Positions 6,168 through 22,149 of a stretch of 25,066 nt of DNA are shown here, one piece after another (the first letter of the stretch is position 1; each line of letters begins with the position of its first letter). The stretch comes from a virus, in the IMG/VR virus record IMGVR_UViG_3300020459_000065, positions 1 through 25,066 of that record. One strand, given 5' to 3'. The notes beneath the pieces are model-generated. The model had not been told where the DNA came from, searched no databases, and saw nothing but the letters and a program-made list of their open reading frames with translations. Both the position numbers and the translations under genes were made by a program.

Positions 6168-8840
6168 TCATACTGGAATCTGCCAATCACTAACAAAAGG
6201 TGCTTGTCCTCCTGGAGGTCCTGGAGAACCAGCAGGTCCTGCTGATACTGTTACCCATTGAAAACTATTACCATCATTATAATAAACATGTAAATCTCCA
6301 TCATCACTATCCCACCACATATCTCCATGAGAAGAAGGACCAGATGGAGGAGATGTTCCAATATCTAATCCAGCAACACCAGCTGGTCCTGGAGGTCCTG
6401 CTGGTCCACCAGATCCTGAATTACCAGTTCTTGAAAAATTAAGTACACATTGTTCATTATTTGAAGGTATTGTCCCTGCAACAGGACTCACAGAAATGTT
6501 TAACCAACCTCCATTATCTACTACACTAGTAACTGTAAATACACTATAAGTATCATCTGAATTTTCATTCGACTGTACAACTAATGTTCCTTTATGAGAT
6601 GTGTTTGTAGAATCATCCCATGTTGCTATAAAATCTGATAAATCTGTAGATTGCGTTGTTAAACTATCAAGCACAATATTACTAATAGAACCAAATGATC
6701 CACTACTATACCTAAAATTACCAGCTCCAGGATCAGATATAAGATTACTAGATAAAAATTTATACCTTAATCCACCTTTATCACCTTGAATTCCTTGAAT
6801 TCCTTGAATTCCTTGTGGTCCTTGAGTACCTTGAGTACCTTGATCACCTTGTGGTCCTGGAGGTCCTGCTGAACCTGGAGGTCCTGCTGGTCCTGGAGGT
6901 CCTTGTGCACCTGGAGATCCTTGCGTTCCTTGATTACCTTGATTACCTTGTGGTCCTGGAGGTCCTGCTGGTCCATCATCCCCATCATCCCCTGCTGGTC
7001 CTGGAGGTCCTGCATCCCCTGCTGGTCCTGGAGGTCCTGCTGAACCTGCTGAACCTGGAGGTCCTTGTGGTCCAGTAGCACCTCTACCACCAGCATTTGT
7101 CTGAACCCATTGTCCTGAATTAGGATCATCATAATAAATGTATAATTCCCCAGTATCACTTTCCCACCATAATTCACCCATTCTAGGTGCAGGTATATTT
7201 GGTGGATTATCAGCAACTGTTACTGGATTAATTGAAATAGTAGCAGCAATACCCATTGGTTGTGCCGTTGCAGTTACAGCAGCACCAACAAAATCTAATT
7301 GAGTAATACTAGAAGCAGTACCTACAAGAACACTCTCATTAAATACACTAATCGCACCTGGAATTAGACCACCACCAATAGGAACCCAATATCTTTGTCC
7401 TGGATGTGTTGGTAAAGATACCATCTGATATTGTTGCCCAGCTGGTACTGAAGAATTATCATTTCCACTCTGTGCTGCACCAGTGGTTGCAGATACAAAT
7501 GTATGTGTATAATCACCACCAGAAGTTACAGAATTTGTTAAAGCAGATTGGAATTGATGAGTTGTTGTATTAGATGATTCACCAACAAAAAGACTAATTG
7601 AAGATGCAGTTGTTGCTACAATAGGAACTGCAGTATCATATGCTCTATCACGTTTTTGCTTAATACCACCAGAAGTTGCAGATACAAATGTATGAGTTGT
7701 TGTATTGGTTGAAGGAACATTAGCAAGAACTTGAATATCAAAAGTATTTGTAGTTACATTCCTAACTCTAATCCACTTATTAGCAATTGGATCGGTATTT
7801 CTTGGATAATCATGCTCTGTGGCATTATTATCCTCCATACATTTAAACTTAAGAGTTCCAGTATCTAACTTAACCCAATCACCGTTACGCATTCCGTGAT
7901 TAGCAACAGCAATTCTTACTAATCCAGTTTGAGGATTATATGTTGTACCACTTGCAGCAGTATGGGTATCAATAGTACTTCTTGGATAAGCATGATCTGA
8001 ACCATTACTATCCTGTGCACAACGGAAGGTTACAGCACCCTCACTTAACCTAACACTATTTTTTACTTTCTTAAGACCGTTATTTGCAGCAGTTATAAAT
8101 GTATGAGTTGTTGTATTAGTTGAGGGAAAAGCATCAAGAACCTGTATATCAAATGTATTTGTTGTTGGATTTACTACTTGTATCCATCTTCCACTAATAG
8201 GATCGCTTGATCTTGGATAAGTCTTATTACCAGATCCATGAGTACAACTAAATGTTAACGAATCATCTGCAAGTTGAACAAGTTCTCCTTCACCAAATCC
8301 ATGACCTGCAACTGTTAAAGTTAAGTTACCAGTACCTGGTGTATATGCAGCATTAGTTACTGTATGAGTAGATGGAGATTCTAATTGATGATTTGTAGCA
8401 AGATCAAGTACTAAAATTCCAGTTGCAGGTGTATATGATCCACCTGAAGGAGTAAAAGATTTACTAGGAGTTGTACCTACATTAACTGTAACTGTTGTAT
8501 TTGTTCTTTCTTTGATAGAAAGTTCTGGATTACCACCAGCAGGGTCAGTTGAACGTGGATACTTATGTTGAGAAAAATGATTATCTTGTGCACACGTAAA
8601 AGTTATAGATTCTTCAAATATTCTAATCTTATCGTTAACAGAAAGATTATGTGAACCTATTGTTATTGTTAAATCACCTGAAGATGGATTATATGTTGCT
8701 GCACTTATATTATAGTTTATAGTCGCATTAGGATCTCCAAGATTGGGTTCTGTCTGCTCCAATCCAAGGAAATTATACCTGTCATCCGTTAATTTATATT
8801 GAGGGGTTCTTTTTACCCTGCCACTAAGATACTTAGGCAT
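6168..8840 (-). CDS. Large modular collagen-like tail fibre / structural protein
   Basis: An 890-residue multidomain protein. Residues about 45-370 hold four copies of a beta-type module whose signature is F-x-C-x2-(D/G), then H-x-YPR-(S/N)-(T/S)-D, with YPR near residues 93, 206, 283 and 343; three copies are preceded by Y-x-P-x-(S/T)-G. The same module occurs once in the neighbouring 331-residue protein. After a Gly/Val/Ile-rich linker comes [19 protein letters not shown] at about 552-570, then Gly-X-Y repeats (about 587-687), then the GDKGGLRY...ATWDDSTNT...FSRTG module shared with the left-edge gene, a short second collagen stretch, and a second copy of the WW motif ([18 protein letters not shown], about 837-855). 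I infer a long stalked fibre with an N-terminal virion-attached or spacer region. The start is ATG one base after the stop of the upstream gene. Confidence 0.85.
6430..6785 (-). repeat. Fibre insert module, copy 2 (copy 1 at about 495-840)
   Basis: This segment encodes the roughly 115-residue beta-type module lying between collagen stalks in the 890-residue protein. It matches the module in the left-edge gene along its whole length ([11 protein letters not shown]-x-G-x-FRY, [17 protein letters not shown], then R/S-TG). At DNA level about 40 bases around 6607-6650 differ from 663-705 at only a few positions. Confidence 0.8.
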
Positions 8841-8841
8841 A

Positions 8842-9837
8842 TCACGTCGTGCTATTTTCTAATATACTGCCAACAAACTCCATTTCTAATGGAGCAACAA
8901 AACCACCATTCATACTTTGTCCTACGTTGACTCTAATTGTTGTTGCATTAACTCTAGCAACATTTAAATTCTGTCCAGAAGCTGGATCTGTTGAACGTGG
9001 ATATGAATGTTCAGTTGCTCTATTATCCATAGAACATGTGAATATGAAAGAATTATCTGCCAATTTCACTTTATCATTATTTTGAAGATTCATTGAAGGA
9101 AGAGTAATTGTCATTTCACCTGAAGTTGGATTATATGATGCATTTGAGGGAAGATACTTTGTACCCACTGTTACTGTACTACTTACCATAACTTCAACAG
9201 CGTTAGGTTTACACCTTTCAAAGTAATGAATAGCAGGTTGATAAACATGGGGATATCCTTTTGATACACCAACTTCTGCAGTAAATGTCTTTGATGTTCC
9301 AACAGTTGCACCTTCTGTAATACTATCAACTACAAAAGATTGTTGTGGATCTGGGAAAATTGTAGTTGTAATACCAGTACTTCCAGTACATGAAAAACTA
9401 ATTCCACTCATACATATGGGATCACCAGCACTTAATTTATGAGCAGCTGCAGTAGTGACTGTAGCTATTCCAGATGGTTCATGATATGCTACATTAGTTA
9501 TTATACCAACATTCTGTTGTGTTCCTTTTATAAAAATCTTATCTAAAACTAAAGGTGTTTTTTCTAACACCATTCTACCATCAACTATAATTACAGCATC
9601 ATTTGGTGGTATCTCAACATCTTCTATAACTTTAATATCTCTTGTATTACCAGTACTTCTTGATTCTCTTCTTTGAATAAAAGTAACAGTTGGATATGTA
9701 TTTCCAGCACCAACATGTGCTACTTGTGCATATAGCAAAAGAGCAGAAGTTCCTGTAGGTACTTCATAAAGTTCTTGCATTCCTGGTGCAACAGGAACTG
9801 CTAATGATATAAACTTATTGACTGGTGCTATTGCCAT
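8842..9837 (-). CDS. Probable virion structural protein with one Cys/His-YPR module
   Basis: A 331-residue beta-rich protein starting [19 protein letters not shown]. The N-terminal half ([54 protein letters not shown]) looks like a small beta-sandwich of the type found in phage baseplate or neck proteins. The C-terminal part carries the Y-x-PTSG-x-MTITLP...F-x-C-x2-D...H-x-YPRSTD module near residues 230-300 that occurs four times in the adjacent 890-residue protein. Proteins of this kind are usual next to the fibre cluster in marine T4-like phages, but I know no assigned role. Genes on both sides are 1 to 3 bases away, so co-translation within the fibre/baseplate operon is likely. Role in fibre attachment is inference. 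Confidence 0.75.
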
Positions 9838-13851: not shown

Positions 13852-15915
13852 TCAACTGACACAATCAATAACTTCCTTAACATCACCCTGATATGGAGGT
13901 CTTGGTTTCAATTGTGGTTTTAATATAGCACCATATCCAGTTTGAGTTATAATTATCAATTCTGGCAATTCAGTGATCTCATTGACATTTGCAACTGAAG
14001 AATCAGATGGAATAACATTTAAAATACCACCCGTATTATCATCAATATACACAGTATATTCATTATCAAAGGAATCAGTAACTATATCACCTTTAACATA
14101 ATCAGTACCAGGAGAAACAACCACAACATGATCAATAATTTTTGGTGTTGTATCTTGTGGATCCTTAATTGGATAATTTTCACCTTCAGAAACAATATAA
14201 ACATCAACTATTTGTTGATAAGTAGGTGATTTTTCATCATAATCTACTACTGCTTTTGCAACAGCACCATATCCTTGCTTACAAGTGTCAACAATTTCAA
14301 CAGATGGTTGTGAAGTATATCCAGATCCACCACTTTCCATATCAATACCAATAAGACTTCCAGTTGCTGCAGCACCTTCACCTACAATAGCACCTAAAAT
14401 TGCCTTACCAATTGCACCTTTACCACCTCCACCAAAGATATTAATCTTCAGTCCAGCACACTCTAAAGGAGGACCAGCATAACATTTACCTAATGGACTA
14501 CTAAATCCAGGATTAGATACACTTGGATTCAAGAAATCGAACATTCCCAAAGATCCAGATGCAATACTTAAATCTTGAATAGCACCCACTGCAGCATTAG
14601 ATGATGCTTCAGCAGCATTAGCAACTTCTAATATCTTATCAACTGCAACTCCAACAATATTTTTAGGTCCCTTACCAATTACCCATGCTCTTACATTCTC
14701 TTTCGCTGCATCAAATACTGGAGTTGGGCAATCTATTACATTTGCAATACCTGATAATCCTTCTGCTGTAGAACGAAGAGTATCTGCAAGACTAAACCCA
14801 CCTAATATTTTTCCAACACCGCCCATAAGTGGTCCCAACCCTTTCATAAGTCCACTAACTATATGATTAAATATTCCACCTATAAACTGATCACCAATAC
14901 AATTCACAAAATTACTGACATTGTCTACAATTCCCTGCAATAGACCTTTGACAGTATCTAACATATTTTTTGCAACATTCTGAATAGCACAAGGTAAGAA
15001 CTTCTGTATTGCACCAATACCTGGAACCATTGCATTTTGTGCTGCTGCTCCTGCTCTCTTCGCAGCACTTCTACTTTTAGTTGCTGCAAATACCATAGAA
15101 TAAACTTGATCATATAGTTTTTTCAACCCACCATTTAATGCAGGTCCTAACTTCTTATAAGTGGAATTTACCATTGTTCCAACAATACCAGAAGTTAATC
15201 CAGTAATTTTAGGAGCAGCAGAACTTACCATAGCAGCAAGTTGTGATGGATTTGCACTCTGAACTCTGGTAACTAGATTACTAACTTCAGAACTTATCTT
15301 ATCAATAGCAGCAGTTGTCTGTGTACTACCAAATACAACTTCAGCACCAATTGCTTGATTTAATGCTCTATTTGCTTTCCCAGTTGCATCTTCAATCTTT
15401 TTCGCTAATTCAACAGAAACTGGTCTAGGTGATCTCTGATTACTACTACCAGATTGTTCATTCGTTTCTGTTTTTGCAATTAAATAACCATCATTCTTTA
15501 TCTTTTTAGTATATCCAGTATATGGTTGGAATGGTCCTTTATATTCATCACTAGGAGAATAACTAGTATTACCAAAAACACCCGTAATTACAGGTAGTTG
15601 TCCATCATCACCATCCAAAAAGAATCCTAATACACTATCACCAGGAGATAAACGAAGTGATTTTGCTCTATTTGCTTTACCAGATCCATCAGTAGGTGAT
15701 AATAAGACTTGTGCCCAAGGTAAGTCTTCATCAGGTAATTCAACAATATTTTGAGGATGATACCCCATAATACGAACTTTAACCCTATTACCCCAAGCAT
15801 CACCAATCTCATTTAATTGATCACCCTGCGAATCTTCAGGTGCAACTTGACCGATCCACCACTTGAATCCGTCCCTTCCTATAAAATTACTTTGTACTAC
15901 TGATTCTCCAATCAT
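13852..15915 (-). CDS. 5: gp5-like baseplate hub OB-fold protein without visible lysozyme domain
   Basis: A 687-residue protein. Residues about 15-115 match the T4 gp5 N-terminal OB-fold: WWIGQVAPEDSQ, then GNRVKVRIMGYHP, ELPDEDLPWAQVLL, and SPGDSVLGFFLDGDDGQLP-x-ITGVFG. In T4 this domain binds the gp27 trimer. T4 gp5 then has a lysozyme domain and beta-helix; here residues about 160-470 are instead Ala/Gly-rich helical sequence (PKITGLTSGIVGTMVNS, GIVDNVSNFVNCIGDQFIGG) with no T4-lysozyme-like Glu-Asp-Thr pattern that I can find. The C-terminal 200 residues are beta-type, with GSGYTSQPSVEIVD and SPGTDYVKGDIVTD elements. The gene overlaps the gp27-like stop by 4 bases (ATGA), consistent with hub partners being co-translated, and is followed by a separate needle gene. 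Confidence 0.8.
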   Translation of the reverse strand: MIGESVVQSNFIGRDGFKWWIGQVAPEDSQGDQLNEIGDAWGNRVKVRIMGYHPQNIVELPDEDLPWAQVLLSPTDGSGKANRAKSLRLSPGDSVLGFFLDGDDGQLPVITGVFGNTSYSPSDEYKGPFQPYTGYTKKIKNDGYLIAKTETNEQSGSSNQRSPRPVSVELAKKIEDATGKANRALNQAIGAEVVFGSTQTTAAIDKISSEVSNLVTRVQSANPSQLAAMVSSAAPKITGLTSGIVGTMVNSTYKKLGPALNGGLKKLYDQVYSMVFAATKSRSAAKRAGAAAQNAMVPGIGAIQKFLPCAIQNVAKNMLDTVKGLLQGIVDNVSNFVNCIGDQFIGGIFNHIVSGLMKGLGPLMGGVGKILGGFSLADTLRSTAEGLSGIANVIDCPTPVFDAAKENVRAWVIGKGPKNIVGVAVDKILEVANAAEASSNAAVGAIQDLSIASGSLGMFDFLNPSVSNPGFSSPLGKCYAGPPLECAGLKINIFGGGGKGAIGKAILGAIVGEGAAATGSLIGIDMESGGSGYTSQPSVEIVDTCKQGYGAVAKAVVDYDEKSPTYQQIVDVYIVSEGENYPIKDPQDTTPKIIDHVVVVSPGTDYVKGDIVTDSFDNEYTVYIDDNTGGILNVIPSDSSVANVNEITELPELIIITQTGYGAILKPQLKPRPPYQGDVKEVIDCVS

Positions 15916-17252
15916 TTTCCTTTAGGTCCTAGAGTATCTCTGAATAGAGTTAATTTTGTATACGATCCTGAAGAATCGAATTGATGACATAATTCCTTGA
16001 TCATATATAATCCACTTTGATCTTCACTAACGTCAGTTCTTTTTTCCATATCAATTTTAGGAAATCTACATTTAATAAGAGTACCTACCCTTAAATTAGT
16101 ATTTAACGGAATTAACATAGTGGCAGTATGTGTCATCAATAAATTATATCTCATCATTGATTGAGAATGTATTTTAGTTGGATCTGCGTTTTTTGGTTTA
16201 TCTTGAACATCTTCTTTAGTTATCTTTGGAACCTTTTCCATTGTCCCAATATCCATAACAGCAGTTATATTTCTACTTGGAACATCACCTAAAGTTTTAT
16301 CATCATTCTCACTTAATGCTGGTAAACTAATTTTTTCACCCATATTTTTAGTTTTTCCTGCATAATTCTCCAATTTAAATAATCCTTTTTCTGGATTAGT
16401 ATATGTAAATGTTAATGGGTTAAAATATATTCTATGACTACAATAAGCACCCCTTTTTAATTTCTCCATCAAATCTTGATTTTTACTTGCTTGAAAACTA
16501 AGTATTTTAAAATCATTACTGGGATCATTTGCAATAACACCAGAAGAATATTCATAATCAGTTTCATATGGTTCATCATCAATTAATTGATCAATAGATT
16601 TAAAATTATATCCATCTTGTGTTTCAAAGAAAAAATATCCAGCAGTAGCATCTCCACCAGATACTGTTCCTGGAACACCTTTTGATGCTAACCACATAAG
16701 AACAGTAAATGGTTTTCTTAAATTACCAATAAACCCATATGGATTTTGAGTTTTATCACATATAACTTCCTTTTGAGTCTTCAAATACTTTTTAACTATA
16801 TCTTTAACACTGTCTGATATAGAAGATGATGCTGGATATTTTTTACCAACTCTAGAAGTCTCATTAGTAATTGCTTCTCTAGGGACCAAATTTAACATAA
16901 AGGACTCTTGTTGCTCATCAATCATTACACCAGTAACACTTTTAACATGCCAATACAATGAAGATTTTGAAAAATCCAAACCTTTATTATTATCAGAATT
17001 ACCAGCGATTTTCATAACAACTCTTTCACCACCTCTTAAAGGTAAACCATTATATATGGTGGTTAATTTACCATCCTTACCTTCTACAGTATTACCAGTA
17101 TTCACAACAAATATAGTAGCAGTTATATTAGGAGAAAATAAATCCTCAAAATAACGAATCTGAATCACACCCTGACCTATATCAACAGTCTTACTACCAT
17201 CTGCTGATTCTATTACAATTTCTTCGTAAATTGACTTATCTATTGCTGCCAT
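15912..17252 (-). CDS. 27: Baseplate hub protein, gp27-like
   Basis: A 446-residue protein. Its N-terminus (IYEEIVIESADGSKTVDIGQ, then YFEDLFSPNITATIFVVN) and the following LPLRGGERVVMKIAG have the pattern of the first domain of gp27/gpD/VgrG hub proteins, which form the pseudo-hexameric ring joining the tail tube to the spike. Mid-protein features include NPYGFIGNLRKPFTVLMWLA and a predicted domain around YFFFETQDGYNFKSIDQLID, typical of these hubs. The C-terminal section (LRVGTLIKCRFPK, GLYMIKELCHQFD, YTKLTLFRDTLG) is the last hub barrel. Length is somewhat above T4 gp27 (about 390). It directly precedes and overlaps the gp5-like gene, its expected partner, and follows tape-measure-like genes. 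The family call rests on pattern and context, so gene number is less certain than hub role. Confidence 0.7.
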   Translation of the reverse strand: MAAIDKSIYEEIVIESADGSKTVDIGQGVIQIRYFEDLFSPNITATIFVVNTGNTVEGKDGKLTTIYNGLPLRGGERVVMKIAGNSDNNKGLDFSKSSLYWHVKSVTGVMIDEQQESFMLNLVPREAITNETSRVGKKYPASSSISDSVKDIVKKYLKTQKEVICDKTQNPYGFIGNLRKPFTVLMWLASKGVPGTVSGGDATAGYFFFETQDGYNFKSIDQLIDDEPYETDYEYSSGVIANDPSNDFKILSFQASKNQDLMEKLKRGAYCSHRIYFNPLTFTYTNPEKGLFKLENYAGKTKNMGEKISLPALSENDDKTLGDVPSRNITAVMDIGTMEKVPKITKEDVQDKPKNADPTKIHSQSMMRYNLLMTHTATMLIPLNTNLRVGTLIKCRFPKIDMEKRTDVSEDQSGLYMIKELCHQFDSSGSYTKLTLFRDTLGPKGK

Positions 17253-18811
17253 TACGTAAATGCGGATTCTAATTCTTGAAGTGTTTTTATAGTACTATTT
17301 ACACTAGATCCATTAACAACAATACTTGGACCACTCTTTTTACTCTTTGTAACAACTGGAGGTTGACTAGAACCAGAAGTAGATTCAGTATTCCTTATTA
17401 TTATAGTACTTTTAGATTTTCTTTCTGGTGTAAATTTTTTACTTATACCTTCAATATCTTTAGTAAATTCCCCAATAGGAAAATCACGTAATTTATCGAA
17501 TGGTAACTTATCAATCTGATCCATAGCAGTACTTGCACCAGACATCATTTCTTCAATATTTTTTTCATTAAAACTATCTTTAAAAGCATCTAAATCTATA
17601 CTTTGTTTAGCTTGATTAAGAGCATTCATTGGAGACAATTTACCATCATTTAACATTGATAAAAATTCTTTATTTTTTTCTGCTATATTTTTTTGTATAA
17701 CAAATTCACCTTTTGTCAATTTTGCAGGAATCTGATCAATACCACCGATACCTTTAACTTCACCACCCTTATTAAACATATTAAATTCAGCTTCTTGAGA
17801 TTTATTTTCTTGTACTGCAGAATCAATCTCCTCTTGAGACAATCCTTTATCAGGATCAGGTTTTTTATTATTAGAATCTTCTTTTATAGATTCAGCATCT
17901 ATATTATTTTTCTGCCCTTCAACTTTTTGGTCATCCTTTTGATCTATAAATTCATCTTTTTTCTCTTCATCGTTACCATCTTCAGATTTATTATCCTTTT
18001 CTTTCTTTTTATTTGGAAATAAATCTAGAAAATCCCACCATTGATTTTTTACTTCTTCCTTTTCACCATCAGTAAGATTCTCTTCACCATCCACTTCACC
18101 TTCAGATTCACCTTCAGATTCACCTTCTCCTTCCCCATCATTAGGATCTGGAAACTTTGTCCATGAATAATTATTATATGCTTGCTTTGGATCATTAAAT
18201 ACATTAAAGGAATTAATAATATCTTCATTTAATGATTCAAAACCTCTTTGAATTTCATCATTAGCTTTATTAATACTATCTCTATCTTCATCAAAATTAT
18301 ATCCTCTAATCGTAGTCAAAGAATTATTCAATACTGAAGCGATTCCTTCCTTAATACCACCAATCATACTTGTAAAGTTACTCAAAATATCAATAGTATT
18401 TTTTATATTTTTAATAGTATTTTCTGTAACCTTAATTATACCTGGTAATCTAGTTACCATCCAACCAAGTATAATAATTCCAAGAAAGTCTAATATCCTT
18501 CCAAGAAATCCTCGTGTACTCTTGGTAAGAATAGAACCTTGCCTTTTAATTACACCACCTACTGTTGAAGCTTCAATTTCATCTTCTCTTTGTCTTCTTC
18601 TAACAGCCTCTCTTCTTTTTCTAAAAAATGATTGTTCTTTACTAATTAAAGATCTTTTAAACTTATTATCTTCATCAATTTGAGCATTAATTTCAGATGC
18701 TTTCTTTTGAGCACCTTTCATACCTTTAGTAAAAGACGTGACAGACTTTCTTATACTATCAATACTGATAGAAGATTTAAGTAAAGAATTTCTAACTACC
18801 TTTATAGACAT
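17252..18811 (-). CDS. Tape-measure-like tail protein with TMP C-terminal motif
   Basis: A 519-residue protein. Residues 1-100 are highly charged and helical (EINAQIDEDNKFKRSLISKE, FFRKRREAVRRRQRED), then a hydrophobic helix at about 106-127 (ILDFLGIIILGWMVTRLPGI). Residues about 223-330 are acidic, low-complexity and probably disordered (GEGEGESEGESEGEVDGEE, then many Lys/Glu/Asp). At 346-372 is FNKGGEVKGIGGIDQIPAKL followed by TKGEFVI, the GG-x-V-x-G-x-G-x2-D-x-(I/V)PA-x-LT-x-GEFV signature common in phage tail tape-measure proteins. The end is Ser/Thr-rich. I infer a component of the extended core that sits inside the tail tube and may enter the host membrane. T4 gp29 (about 590 residues) is one chain; here two successive genes share the features. 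The ATG lies one base after the upstream stop. Confidence 0.6.
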   Translation of the reverse strand: MSIKVVRNSLLKSSISIDSIRKSVTSFTKGMKGAQKKASEINAQIDEDNKFKRSLISKEQSFFRKRREAVRRRQREDEIEASTVGGVIKRQGSILTKSTRGFLGRILDFLGIIILGWMVTRLPGIIKVTENTIKNIKNTIDILSNFTSMIGGIKEGIASVLNNSLTTIRGYNFDEDRDSINKANDEIQRGFESLNEDIINSFNVFNDPKQAYNNYSWTKFPDPNDGEGEGESEGESEGEVDGEENLTDGEKEEVKNQWWDFLDLFPNKKKEKDNKSEDGNDEEKKDEFIDQKDDQKVEGQKNNIDAESIKEDSNNKKPDPDKGLSQEEIDSAVQENKSQEAEFNMFNKGGEVKGIGGIDQIPAKLTKGEFVIQKNIAEKNKEFLSMLNDGKLSPMNALNQAKQSIDLDAFKDSFNEKNIEEMMSGASTAMDQIDKLPFDKLRDFPIGEFTKDIEGISKKFTPERKSKSTIIIRNTESTSGSSQPPVVTKSKKSGPSIVVNGSSVNSTIKTLQELESAFT

Positions 18812-18812
18812 A

Positions 18813-20348
18813 TTATACTGCTACTACTCCATAGAATTTTGATGCAAGTAAAGTAGGATTATCCATATTTGAAGAAGGTATTACTGGAAGAGAATTAGCC
18901 ATATCAGTTCCAGATGATCCTGATGGTGAAGATCCACCACTTTGAGTATTAGTAGTACTCATATCAAGTATATTTGGAGATGGTTCTTCTAAAGAAGATA
19001 TATTTTCTGCAACATTAACTTCCTTTTTCTTACCTTCAAATAAATCTCCCCTCTTATCAAAATCTGTCACACCAAAAGTTGCAAAGTCAGCTAAACCAGC
19101 AAGACCTCTCATAAAACCTTTAGGTTTTTCCTCCTCTATAGGACTAAACGCAGATGGCATTATATTTTCTCTTCCACCTGCATTTTGTATTATTTGTTCC
19201 TTGTCTGCTTCTGATAGAGATTCTTCTGAACCATTTTGAATATCCGTACCTTCCTTCTGAGTTCCTACGAACATACCTGTTATACCTTTTACAGCTTCAA
19301 AAGCAAACCAAGATTGTAAAAATTTACCTATTGGTCCTGCTTTACTTACATTCTGAACAATAATCCATGCTGTGGTTCCTGCACCACTTTTAATAATTGC
19401 AGGTCCTGCAGGTTCACCACCTAAAATATCAATTCCTGCATCTAAAGTACCAGCAGTAAGACCACCACCTGTTGTAAGACCACCCTTTGGAGTTGGTGTT
19501 TGTCCACTACCCTTTCCTTTACCAAAACCAAATAATCCTGCTAATGTCTTAAGAATACCACCAGAACCAATTTTAGCACCAGCACTAACAGTTGTCTTAA
19601 CTATTTTTCCACCAGCAGCAGCATATATTGCATTCCATGCTACTTGTGCTGCTTTACCGAAAAGACTTGTTAAAGCCTTTATCGGTTTCATTATCATATT
19701 ATTACCAATAACCCTGAAAATAGTACCAGCTATTCCAGTCAATACTCGTACTAATCCAGTTATAGCTAATTTAACACCAAGAAATATACCAGTAAGAGTT
19801 AATAAACCACCAATGACACCATCACGAATCTGATTCATTAAATCAATATTTCCATCAGATTTTGCTTTTAACCATTGAACTAATTTAGTACCTAACCATC
19901 CACCAACTATCTGTGTAAAAGCAGTAGCTAATCTACCTAAAGTAAATTGAGCCTTCTGTCCGATTGCTTCAACAGGTTTCATCAAAGAACTTTGTATTCT
20001 TCTCTCTACTGCACTTTCCTTACCTTCTCTTAATCCTTGTTCTGCTAATTGTGCTTCTCTAGCCTGTTCAGCAGCAGCTCTTTGTCTATCTAACTGTGAT
20101 TGAAGTGCTAGATTGCTCTGTATATTAGATAATGAAAAATTTAATTGTCCAATTTGTTGAGATATTGATGCTAATTGTCCAGAAACTGACGATAATACAG
20201 ATGTATTCTGACTTATTAAACTAGTTGTTTGTGGATCTGGTTGAGTAACAGCAGGAGTTGGGGCACCACCACCAGCAAAGACACTAGAAGAAACTGTTCT
20301 TCTAACTGCCTGTATTCCTCCTGATATTGGTGATTGTATCTCAGCCAT
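18813..20348 (-). CDS. Tape-measure-like tail core protein
   Basis: A 511-residue protein. Residues about 40-125 form a Gln/Ala/Leu-rich coiled coil (SGQLASISQQIGQLNFSLSN, then RQRAAAEQAREAQLAEQG). Residues about 135-215 contain amphipathic and strongly hydrophobic helices, including GGLLTLTGIFLGVKLAITGL at about 175-195. A Gly-rich middle (GFGKGKGSGQTPTPKGG, GGGLTAGTLDAGIDILGG) follows, and a Ser-rich disordered tail ends SKFYGVVAV. Coiled coil plus membrane-active helices, together with position just after the tail-chaperone pair and before the hub, point to a tape-measure or tail-core protein. Its start overlaps the 59-codon ORF by 8 bases (ATGGCTGA), implying translational coupling. Whether it or the next gene, or both, sets tail length cannot be judged from sequence alone. 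Confidence 0.55.
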   Translation of the reverse strand: MAEIQSPISGGIQAVRRTVSSSVFAGGGAPTPAVTQPDPQTTSLISQNTSVLSSVSGQLASISQQIGQLNFSLSNIQSNLALQSQLDRQRAAAEQAREAQLAEQGLREGKESAVERRIQSSLMKPVEAIGQKAQFTLGRLATAFTQIVGGWLGTKLVQWLKAKSDGNIDLMNQIRDGVIGGLLTLTGIFLGVKLAITGLVRVLTGIAGTIFRVIGNNMIMKPIKALTSLFGKAAQVAWNAIYAAAGGKIVKTTVSAGAKIGSGGILKTLAGLFGFGKGKGSGQTPTPKGGLTTGGGLTAGTLDAGIDILGGEPAGPAIIKSGAGTTAWIIVQNVSKAGPIGKFLQSWFAFEAVKGITGMFVGTQKEGTDIQNGSEESLSEADKEQIIQNAGGRENIMPSAFSPIEEEKPKGFMRGLAGLADFATFGVTDFDKRGDLFEGKKKEVNVAENISSLEEPSPNILDMSTTNTQSGGSSPSGSSGTDMANSLPVIPSSNMDNPTLLASKFYGVVAV

Positions 20349-20520
20349 TGTTTGCTTGTTGTGCTTTTAAATTTTCCTCCTCAATATACTGTTGTAGAAG
20401 AGAAAGGTAAATTTCTCTTTCCCACGGGATCATATTTTCTAGCTCTGTCAAGCTATATTTATGATGTTGCATCAAGGCAAAATTAATTTTATAGTATGAC
20501 TCAAGATCCTCATGAGACAT
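20341..20520 (-). CDS. 59-codon ORF, candidate frameshifted extension of gp26 (gene 51 position)
   Basis: A short ORF beginning ATG 20520-20518 and ending TGA 20343-20341. It encodes 59 residues, predicted helical: MSHEDLESYYKINFALMQHH, then KYSLTELENMIPWEREIYLS, ending in a Gln/Glu-rich tail. An IPW-x-R-x2-Y-type motif like this appears in small proteins beside tail assembly genes. It occupies the place of T4 gene 51 (order 26-51-27) but is far shorter than T4 gp51, so equivalence is positional only. No good ribosome binding site lies at the usual distance from its ATG, and the ATG falls within a stem-loop. It is in the -1 frame relative to gene 26, and a slippery site precedes it, so it may be made mainly as a gp26 fusion of about 300 residues. 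Confidence 0.75.
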   Translation of the reverse strand: MSHEDLESYYKINFALMQHHKYSLTELENMIPWEREIYLSLLQQYIEEENLKAQQANNG

Positions 20521-20550
20521 ACTTACCCGAAAAAACTTTGCAAACCCTCC
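20493..20550 (-). promoter_or_regulatory. Predicted -1 programmed ribosomal frameshift signal (gene 26 to 59-codon ORF)
   Basis: Reading the minus strand: GGAGGG (20550-20545), a 9-base spacer, the heptamer T_TTT_TTC (20535-20529) in the correct X_XXY_YYZ phase for gene 26, a 5-base spacer (GGGTA), then a stem-loop (20523-20493) of AGTATG/CATACT plus CTCA/TGAG separated by one T-T mismatch, with a 9-base loop. The zero frame stops two codons after the heptamer; after a -1 slip the ribosome reads Arg-Val-Ser and then the 59-codon ORF in frame. This has all three parts of a bacterial -1 signal of the dnaX type. Function is predicted, not shown. Confidence 0.7.
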
Positions 20551-21242
20551 AAAACAACTTCACTTTCAACCTTTGTATTGGGATTTATAATTTTAATTTT
20601 ATGAGATAGTTTAGGCATAGTCTCAAAGAAAGATTCAATTTCTTTAAATTGTTTGGAATTTAATTGTTCCACAAATTGAGATAATTCTTTTTTTGTACAA
20701 TCAGATGAATTCCAAGATTCCTCTTCAGAATAAACTTGTTCAATACAAGAAGCAATCAAATCAAAAGTATCATCAACATTAATATCACCAGCCGTAGAAA
20801 AATTATTTTTAATAAATTCATCTAATGATGGATATTTCATTCTTAAAGTATAATCATTATCCAATTTAATATCTCTATTATGATTATCACCTATTTCAAT
20901 TTTTATATCATCTAAATTAATAAGAGTTGGAACTTGTGTTTTTCCATCATCTGGACAAGTAACCATAACTTCAACATCTTCACCGATAGATTTTCCTCTA
21001 ATATTAAGAAAAAGATATTCAATATCAAAAGTTGATAATTTTTCTACTTTAATTCCTCTAGATAGAATGCAATTTGAAATAACATCTTTTACTGCATTAG
21101 CAATTTGAGTAGTGTCTTGACTCTCCATTGCTAATATTAAAATCTTTTCTTCTTTTACAAGAAATGGTCTAAACTTAACCTTCTTTTTAGAAGATGGTAT
21201 AACCAACTCATAAGAAGGTGTTGCAATTTTTGGTAAAGGCAT
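20523..21242 (-). CDS. 26: Baseplate hub assembly protein gp26-like
   Basis: A 239-residue protein matching the T4 gp26 / T4 base-plate family: it opens MPLPKIATPSYELVIPSSKK, then KVKFRPFLVKEEKILILAME, the usual conserved block, followed by VISNCILSRGIKVEKLSTFD and the (I/V)EYLFLNIRGKSIGE block, a CPDDGK-type strand, MKYPSLDEF, and a helical C-terminus with FFETMPKLSHKI. T4 gp26 is about 208 residues. In T4 it is needed for hub assembly, and members resemble tail-assembly chaperones. The reading frame ends in a T6C run and stops two codons later; see the frameshift signal at 20493-20550. A TATAAATT late-promoter-like box lies 21 bases before the ATG. Confidence 0.85.
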   Translation of the reverse strand: MPLPKIATPSYELVIPSSKKKVKFRPFLVKEEKILILAMESQDTTQIANAVKDVISNCILSRGIKVEKLSTFDIEYLFLNIRGKSIGEDVEVMVTCPDDGKTQVPTLINLDDIKIEIGDNHNRDIKLDNDYTLRMKYPSLDEFIKNNFSTAGDINVDDTFDLIASCIEQVYSEEESWNSSDCTKKELSQFVEQLNSKQFKEIESFFETMPKLSHKIKIINPNTKVESEVVLEGLQSFFG

Positions 21243-21288: not shown

Positions 21289-22149
21289 TTAAATTTTATA
21301 AGATGAGATAACATCCCCAGAAATAGGTCTATCATTCCAAAAATTATCATTAAGATATTGTGGAACTTTTATTCCTGTATCTGTTAAAGATGAAACTTTG
21401 TTCCAGGGAACTTTAGATTCTGAAGGAGGTTTATCATAAACTCCAGGATCATTTAACTTATTATAATTAAGAGATGTCTTCTTCTCTAATGTACTTTTTT
21501 CTCTAGTACCAGCATAACTATTAAGATCAATCATTTTATCTCTTTCTAATGAAGTAGTTCCACCAGCAACATATCTATCATAACTAAATGAACAAGTTGC
21601 TTTTAAGACTTGAGAATTTTGATATTGTACTCTGGTTGAACTTAAATTCATTGGAAATAAACCAATAAATTTATATTCCATATATTGTCTATAATTCTTT
21701 TCAAATTTAATTATTCTAGTTTCATTTGACTTATATTCTTCAGGATATCTCATTCTAAAATAATAATTCTCATCACCAGGATATTCCTGTCCACCATCAG
21801 AAATATAATCCATCCAATGTTCCAGGAACTTTAATGATTTATATCCATTATCAACATAAAACTCTAGTTGAATTTGAGTAAATATTCTAGTATGTGCCAT
21901 CTGCTCAACAACACCCTGATAATCACCTTGTGCTGGAATATTTGCTAAACTACTTCCAGGTAATGATGCACCAGAACAAAGTAATCCAATAGTCTCAAGA
22001 CTAAATCTAGTATCAACACCTTTAGCTCTTAAATGATCCCTCAAACTACTAGCAGGTAATCCAAATTGAACAGAATAATGTGATGTTTGAGCAACATTTT
22101 GAAATGTTGGTAGAATCTGCGATATTTTCTTCGGTATCGGTCTACGCAC
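21289..22149 (-). CDS. 54: Tail-tube initiator, gp54-like
   Basis: A 286-residue protein with the pattern of the T4 gp19/gp54 tube fold: HYSVQFGLPASSLRDHL near residue 25, LLCSGASLPGSSLAN near 60, then FTQIQLEFYVDNGYKSLKFL near 110, HWMDYISDG, and YKFIGLFPMNLSSTRVQYQN leading into LKATCSFSYDRYVAG at about 165-210. In T4 gp54 sits on the hub and nucleates tube polymerisation. Length and the extended C-terminus (about 220-286, Lys/Ser/Pro-rich) suit an initiator better than the shorter gp19 tube protein, though a tube paralogue cannot be excluded. The start is GTG at 22149-22147: an in-frame TAA lies four codons upstream and no other early start is present. A CTAAATA box lies 29 bases before it. 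Confidence 0.7.
   Translation of the reverse strand: MRRPIPKKISQILPTFQNVAQTSHYSVQFGLPASSLRDHLRAKGVDTRFSLETIGLLCSGASLPGSSLANIPAQGDYQGVVEQMAHTRIFTQIQLEFYVDNGYKSLKFLEHWMDYISDGGQEYPGDENYYFRMRYPEEYKSNETRIIKFEKNYRQYMEYKFIGLFPMNLSSTRVQYQNSQVLKATCSFSYDRYVAGGTTSLERDKMIDLNSYAGTREKSTLEKKTSLNYNKLNDPGVYDKPPSESKVPWNKVSSLTDTGIKVPQYLNDNFWNDRPISGDVISSYKI

Follow-up and report, generated by a model that had tools for sequence, protein, structure and literature searches.

Gene 26 and the 59-codon open reading frame (ORF) at the position of gene 51 very probably constitute a single gene that is expressed by a programmed -1 ribosomal frameshift, with 51 being an extension of gp26. Both lie in a 25,066-nucleotide stretch of DNA from an ocean cyanophage (IMG/VR record IMGVR_UViG_3300020459_000065), here called the window. 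Sequence comparison with relatives establishes the reading frame, the slippery heptamer, the loss of the start codon in many relatives, the RNA stem and the homology between the fusion and T4-type gp51. That ribosomes slip, at what rate they do so, and that both products serve as chaperones is what we infer.

Slippage by one base is an established way in which tailed viruses obtain two lengths of a chaperone for building the tail. Most ribosomes would terminate at the gp26 stop codon and release a short tail assembly chaperone. A minority would pause at a Shine-Dalgarno (SD)-like GGAGGG sequence and a stem-loop. Slippage at T TTT TTC would then take these ribosomes into the -1 frame and yield a 300-aa gp26-51 fusion as the long chaperone. 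By analogy to gpG/gpGT of phage lambda, coating of the tape measure protein would fall to the gp26 part, and recruitment of the tube protein to the helices of 51.

Organization of the locus

All features described for this locus are encoded on the minus strand, in the order tail tube gene, gp26, 59-codon ORF and tape-measure-like gene. The tail tube gene (21289-22149) was assigned by PF23849 (E 1.4e-17) and phrog_45 (E 1.6e-39). The gp26 gene (20523-21242) encodes a protein of 239 aa, the putative short tail assembly chaperone (TAC-N), which matches phrog_150 (E 5.6e-83) and PF12322 (T4_baseplate, the T4 gp26/gp51 family; E 2e-76), the latter with 257 bits at a curated cut-off of 24.5. The ORF 51 (20341-20520) was described correctly from the sequence alone in a preliminary description: it starts with ATG, encodes 59 aa and overlaps by 8 nt with the start of the 511-aa tape-measure-like gene (18813-20348). 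Its 59 residues match phrog_634 (E 2.9e-28; annotated as 'baseplate hub assembly catalyst') as well as positions 238-278 of phrog_150 (E 1e-7). The latter positions lie at the end of the gp26 family profile, and this match was a first hint that elsewhere the two parts belong to a single protein. A tail assembly chaperone is expected between the tail tube and tape measure genes; the tube gene is found upstream, and the assignment of the downstream gene is suggested by its position, its product having no convincing family match in Pfam or PHROG.

In the region 17252-20348, two large tail genes (511 and 519 aa) follow one after the other, neither with a convincing Pfam or PHROG match. Further along the same strand (6168-9837), two adjoining tail-fibre-like genes match phrog_1276 and perhaps represent a duplicated module.

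The slippery heptamer and its conservation

The gp26 gene ends with AGT TTT TTC GGG TAA and thus contains, in its own frame, a heptamer of the X XXY YYZ type, T TTT TTC (20529-20535), with the stop codon TAA (20523-20525) 3 nt past it. The frame of 51 is -1 relative to gp26 and is open from position 20559 within gp26 down to 20341, so that the predicted trans-frame product gp26-51 (long chaperone, TAC-NC) would span 20341-21242. In the 7844 codons of the window's genes, T TTT TTC occurs in frame only twice, and a heptamer that is this rare in the window yet invariant at the junction in relatives points to more than chance. The second copy is located in the gene at 15912-17252 (minus strand), 724 nt before the gene end, and shows no sign of function.

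Two sets of related loci were compared. The first set comprised 109 distinct junctions and was reduced to 107 loci with 105 distinct 64-nt segments by excluding two loci (L113, L150) in which gp26 ends ahead of the junction due to a deletion or frame error. Two further loci were left out, one (L014) in which 51 was not found and the contig ends soon after gp26, and one (L160) that equals the window; a locus with a cut 5' end (L110) was omitted from the codon counts. The heptamer was invariant in 107 of 107 coding sequences, and TTTTTTC was present in all 105 distinct segments. The second set was retrieved with gp26 of S-RIM2, Vibrio V07, Melnitz and phiM7 and comprised 239 loci, of which 183 distinct ones remained after removal of 51 repeated junctions and 5 cut loci. 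The 51 domain was detected in 181 of the 183, each time in the -1 frame (181/181), and both loci without a detectable domain (L223, L283) have kept the heptamer.

Together, the two sets provide 266 distinct 60-nt metagenomic junctions; since every query was a gp26 of a phage with a small 51 ORF, counts on them are no census of the whole family. In all 266, 51 is in the -1 frame and a T TTT TTN heptamer is present (TTTTTTC in 229, TTTTTTT in 19, TTTTTTA in 17 and TTTTTTG in one). Among 97 conserved gp26 columns, only the Phe pair of the heptamer is free of codon variation (TTT 107/107, TTC 107/107), while elsewhere Phe is encoded by 852 TTT and 262 TTC codons. The codon ahead of this Phe pair always ends in T, whether it encodes S, A, N or D. 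Among phage isolates, 51 is in the -1 frame in 13 of 14. The exception, S-SCSM1 (L163, around 2488-2530), retains the heptamer and has its 51 ORF in the +1 frame, the -1 frame closing soon after; this may be an artefact of sequencing (an error or indel), or frameshifting may truly have been lost.

Elements flanking the slip site

The SD-like sequence GGAGGG (20545-20550) is located inside gp26, 9 nt ahead of the heptamer, and is a likely stimulator. An anti-SD duplex of -5 or lower at gaps of 5-7 nt is predicted in 98% of the 107 coding sequences, with a median of -9.8 compared to a gene-wide mean of -0.32, and in 47 of the 107 a stronger anti-SD match exists elsewhere in gp26. The Glu codon at this site is GAG in 94 of 107 sequences, as opposed to 842 of 2586 Glu codons overall.

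Downstream of the heptamer, the window is predicted to form a stem-loop (20493-20523; arms 20513-20523 and 20493-20503) with a folding energy of -14.7 kcal/mol (z -2.0). The 38-nt downstream stretch in 105 related segments has a median z of -4.45 (90% below -1.5), whereas 315 control stretches from gp26 have a median z of -0.02 (9% below -1.5). RNAalifold without guidance predicted only 3 pairs at -0.7 kcal/mol and did not recover the full stem, and pairs were therefore counted on the named structure. By this count, 90.9% of cells are paired, compared to 25-46% when the stem is slid, a control that leans towards the named stem because this was drawn from the window.

Covariation is most evident for pair 21-35, which in 106 rows is UA in 61, AU in 16, GC in 16, GU in 3 and unpaired in 10, with changes on both sides in 35 rows. 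Since column 21 falls on a wobble position and column 35 is the middle base of a Glu, Ala or Val codon, it is here the protein that follows the RNA. When the tree is considered, columns 21 and 35 change 17 and 16 times, respectively, and the pair state only 20 times; independent pairs gave 6 changes in the same and 0 in the opposite direction (median p 0.031). Furthermore, Ser codon 8 is TCA in 97 of 97 cases. Rfam returned only implausible matches, far below the gathering scores. In 7 of 13 isolates the stem is weak (z above -1.5). ACG-2014h has a strong stem of a different sequence that lacks the ATG (z -5.44), and thus the structure persists where the start codon is gone. In the window's own group, a putative stimulatory RNA structure is accordingly present a few nucleotides 3' of the heptamer, and together with the upstream GGAGGG this covarying stem-loop completes a predicted -1 signal of the typical bacterial kind.

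Initiation at 51 and alternative explanations

The ATG of 51 (20520-20518) forms part of the 5' arm of the covarying stem, in agreement with the preliminary description, which had considered this start to be hidden. The same description took the missing ribosome binding site as a sign of weak initiation. This argument does not discriminate: the median anti-SD duplex energy is 0.0 for the 51 ATG, -0.9 for gp26 and -1.0 for the downstream gene, and since the latter two also lack an SD sequence, its absence does not single out 51. Of the 266 distinct junctions, 61 contain no ATG, GTG or TTG from -45 to +30 of the gp26 stop codon, and 90 contain no ATG. Where no start codon precedes the 51 domain, only a change of frame can express it. 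Four of the 14 isolates (DSL-LC03, Melnitz, S-RIM2 and ACG-2014d) are of this type, and in ACG-2014h the sole candidate start is a TTG at +20. The proposal that the product is made by frameshifting is thus supported by the uniform frame and heptamer and by these start-less junctions.

If 51 were instead an independent small gene, its ATG could be reached by termination-reinitiation from the gp26 stop codon two bases upstream. In favor of this explanation, the spacing in the window is TAA GT ATG, which places the ATG 5 nt past the first base of the stop codon, and 101 of the 106 rows in the window's group have kept the ATG. However, the ATG is part of the stem, which by itself explains its conservation, and a separate gene would need neither the invariant heptamer nor its phase. 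Together with the start-less junctions and the fusion of the T4-type homologues in one frame, this makes an independent gene very unlikely. Less improbable, but still unlikely, is that the window's group makes both products, the frameshift fusion and a minor amount of free 59-aa protein by reinitiation. Here, conservation of the ATG and conservation of the stem are indistinguishable, but a free protein cannot be required in those relatives whose 51 has no start codon, and the 51 ATG lacks an SD sequence.

Alternatively, the fusion could arise by transcriptional instead of ribosomal slippage, because a run of six to seven T residues could also make RNA polymerase slip. The run is nevertheless short and fixed in the T TTT TTN phase, and it is flanked by elements specific to translation, namely the SD-like sequence and the downstream stem, which renders transcriptional slippage even less probable than an independent 51 gene. 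Finally, homologues fused in one frame in T4-type phages might suggest that a frame error in sequencing or assembly has split one gene and produced the overlap. The junction recurs, however, in 266 distinct sequences and 13 of the 14 isolates, covering several genera and hosts, which refutes such an error and leaves it a practically negligible probability. The programmed -1 ribosomal frameshift is therefore the explanation that we favor.

Possible coupling to the downstream gene

Among 102 loci, the overlap between the start of the downstream gene and the 51 stop codon measures 8 nt in 62 and 11 nt in 23; in the second set, the commonest offsets between the 51 stop and the downstream start are -8, -1, -11 and -14. 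Such overlaps are also retained in loci that lack a 51 start codon (L048, L146 and S-RIM2). It is plausible, as had been suggested from the 8-nt overlap, that expression of the tape-measure-like gene is driven by ribosomes that read through 51. The start codon of this gene lies within the final part of the -1 frame with no SD sequence ahead of it, and in phages with a start-less 51 only frameshifted ribosomes would arrive there. One could tentatively speculate, although we consider it rather doubtful, that the frameshift gates both the long chaperone and the tape-measure-like gene, such that one slip rate would set the amounts of both and lock their ratio to the short chaperone.

Relation to T4 gp26 and gp51

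T4 gp26 and gp51 are baseplate hub assembly proteins. In T4, the paralogues gp26 (208 aa) and gp51 (249 aa) are encoded on opposite strands, and both match the whole length of the PF12322 profile (E 8.8e-64 and 3.9e-52, respectively). T4 gp51 also matches phrog_634 (E 1.2e-23). When the 14 conceptual fusions are compared with eight gp51 proteins of the T4 type, the alignment runs directly through the junction, while the gp26 proteins of this type stop at that position. The suggested kinship of the 59 residues to T4 gp51 was thereby confirmed, as they correspond to its C-terminal extension by phrog_634, phrog_150 and the alignment. At the end of T4 gp26 (GLKEFFELL), the two Phe residues are retained and the slip site is lost (GAG TTC TTT). 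Among 17 records, the T4-type phages T4, Citrobacter CF1 and Aeromonas AhMtk13a contain two PF12322 genes each, and the other 14, all of phages with a small 51 ORF, contain one each. Combined with the alignment, these counts indicate that short and long forms are made by either frameshifting or gene duplication.

The structure model of a T4-type gp51 is confident (pLDDT 86.9) and its extension is helical (residues 206-221, 226-231 and 234-249). A fold search of the PDB with this model gave no match at E <= 0.001 (best Z 4.8), and known tail assembly chaperone structures were absent among the matches listed; weak matches to C1QBP and to a phicrAss001 protein were not taken as relatives of gp51. 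BFVD matches confirm only the kinship with phage gp26/gp51 proteins, and a sequence search of the PDB found no match. An AlphaFold2 model of the window's gp26 with 18 close relatives was too poor for use (pLDDT 59.3).

None of the 14 isolate records contains a joined coding sequence at the junction. The 51 extension is left unannotated in five of them (L164, L165, L166, L168 and L172), and in S-RIM2 and Melnitz it is annotated from an internal ATG. Thus, a gene of abundant ocean phages that usually appears in annotations as a stand-alone 'hub assembly catalyst', or is overlooked entirely, would be the extension of gp26. The two solutions offer a natural comparison of how short and long chaperones are produced, by frameshifting in Kyanoviridae and in T4-like phages of Vibrio and Sinorhizobium, and by gene duplication in T4. 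The junction itself is a readily testable frameshift signal that bears on the old question of the role of T4 gp51.

Comparison with known systems

Vladimirov 2022 reportedly describes T4 gp26 and gp51 as tail assembly chaperones, with probable poly-T slippage in some T4-like phages. In the literature searched, which was covered in part, no recognisable paper on a cyanophage 26/51 frameshift was found, and neither were the ATG-hiding stem, the SD-like element or counts of start-less relatives. The T4 tail review lists gp51 as essential and of unknown function (PMC3004832), and Atkins 2016 states that the G-T frameshift is widely conserved, T4 being excepted (PMC5009743). According to the PRFect paper, which cites Vladimirov, Gautam and Davidson 2022, some T4-like phages dispense with the frameshift and instead have one gene for the short chaperone and a second, longer gene that encodes the fused form (PMC10885494). 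The paper on phage Adele cites Vladimirov 2022 for poly-T slippery sequences in TAC-N genes of T4-like phages, and describes a -1 frameshift with a conserved GTTTTT motif in the TAC locus of Vandenendeviridae/Andersonviridae (PMC12846349). These are different phage families, which would share with the window a TAC locus with a -1 frameshift.

Among the closest counterparts are gp26 and gp51 of P-SSM2 and other Kyanoviridae ('baseplate hub' and 'baseplate hub assembly catalyst'), which are direct orthologues with the same junction as the window. Like G/GT of phage lambda, the window encodes a short protein with a predicted -1 frameshift extension between the tail tube gene and the presumptive tape measure, and the 8-nt overlap of lambda T and H equals that of 51 and the downstream gene. 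Different from lambda G/GT, the slip site is T TTT TTN, and a downstream stem and an upstream SD-like element are evident. The T4 proteins share the PF12322 family with the window, gp51 being collinear with the fusion and gp26 with the short product. In contrast to the window, T4 encodes them by two divergent genes on opposite strands without a slip site.
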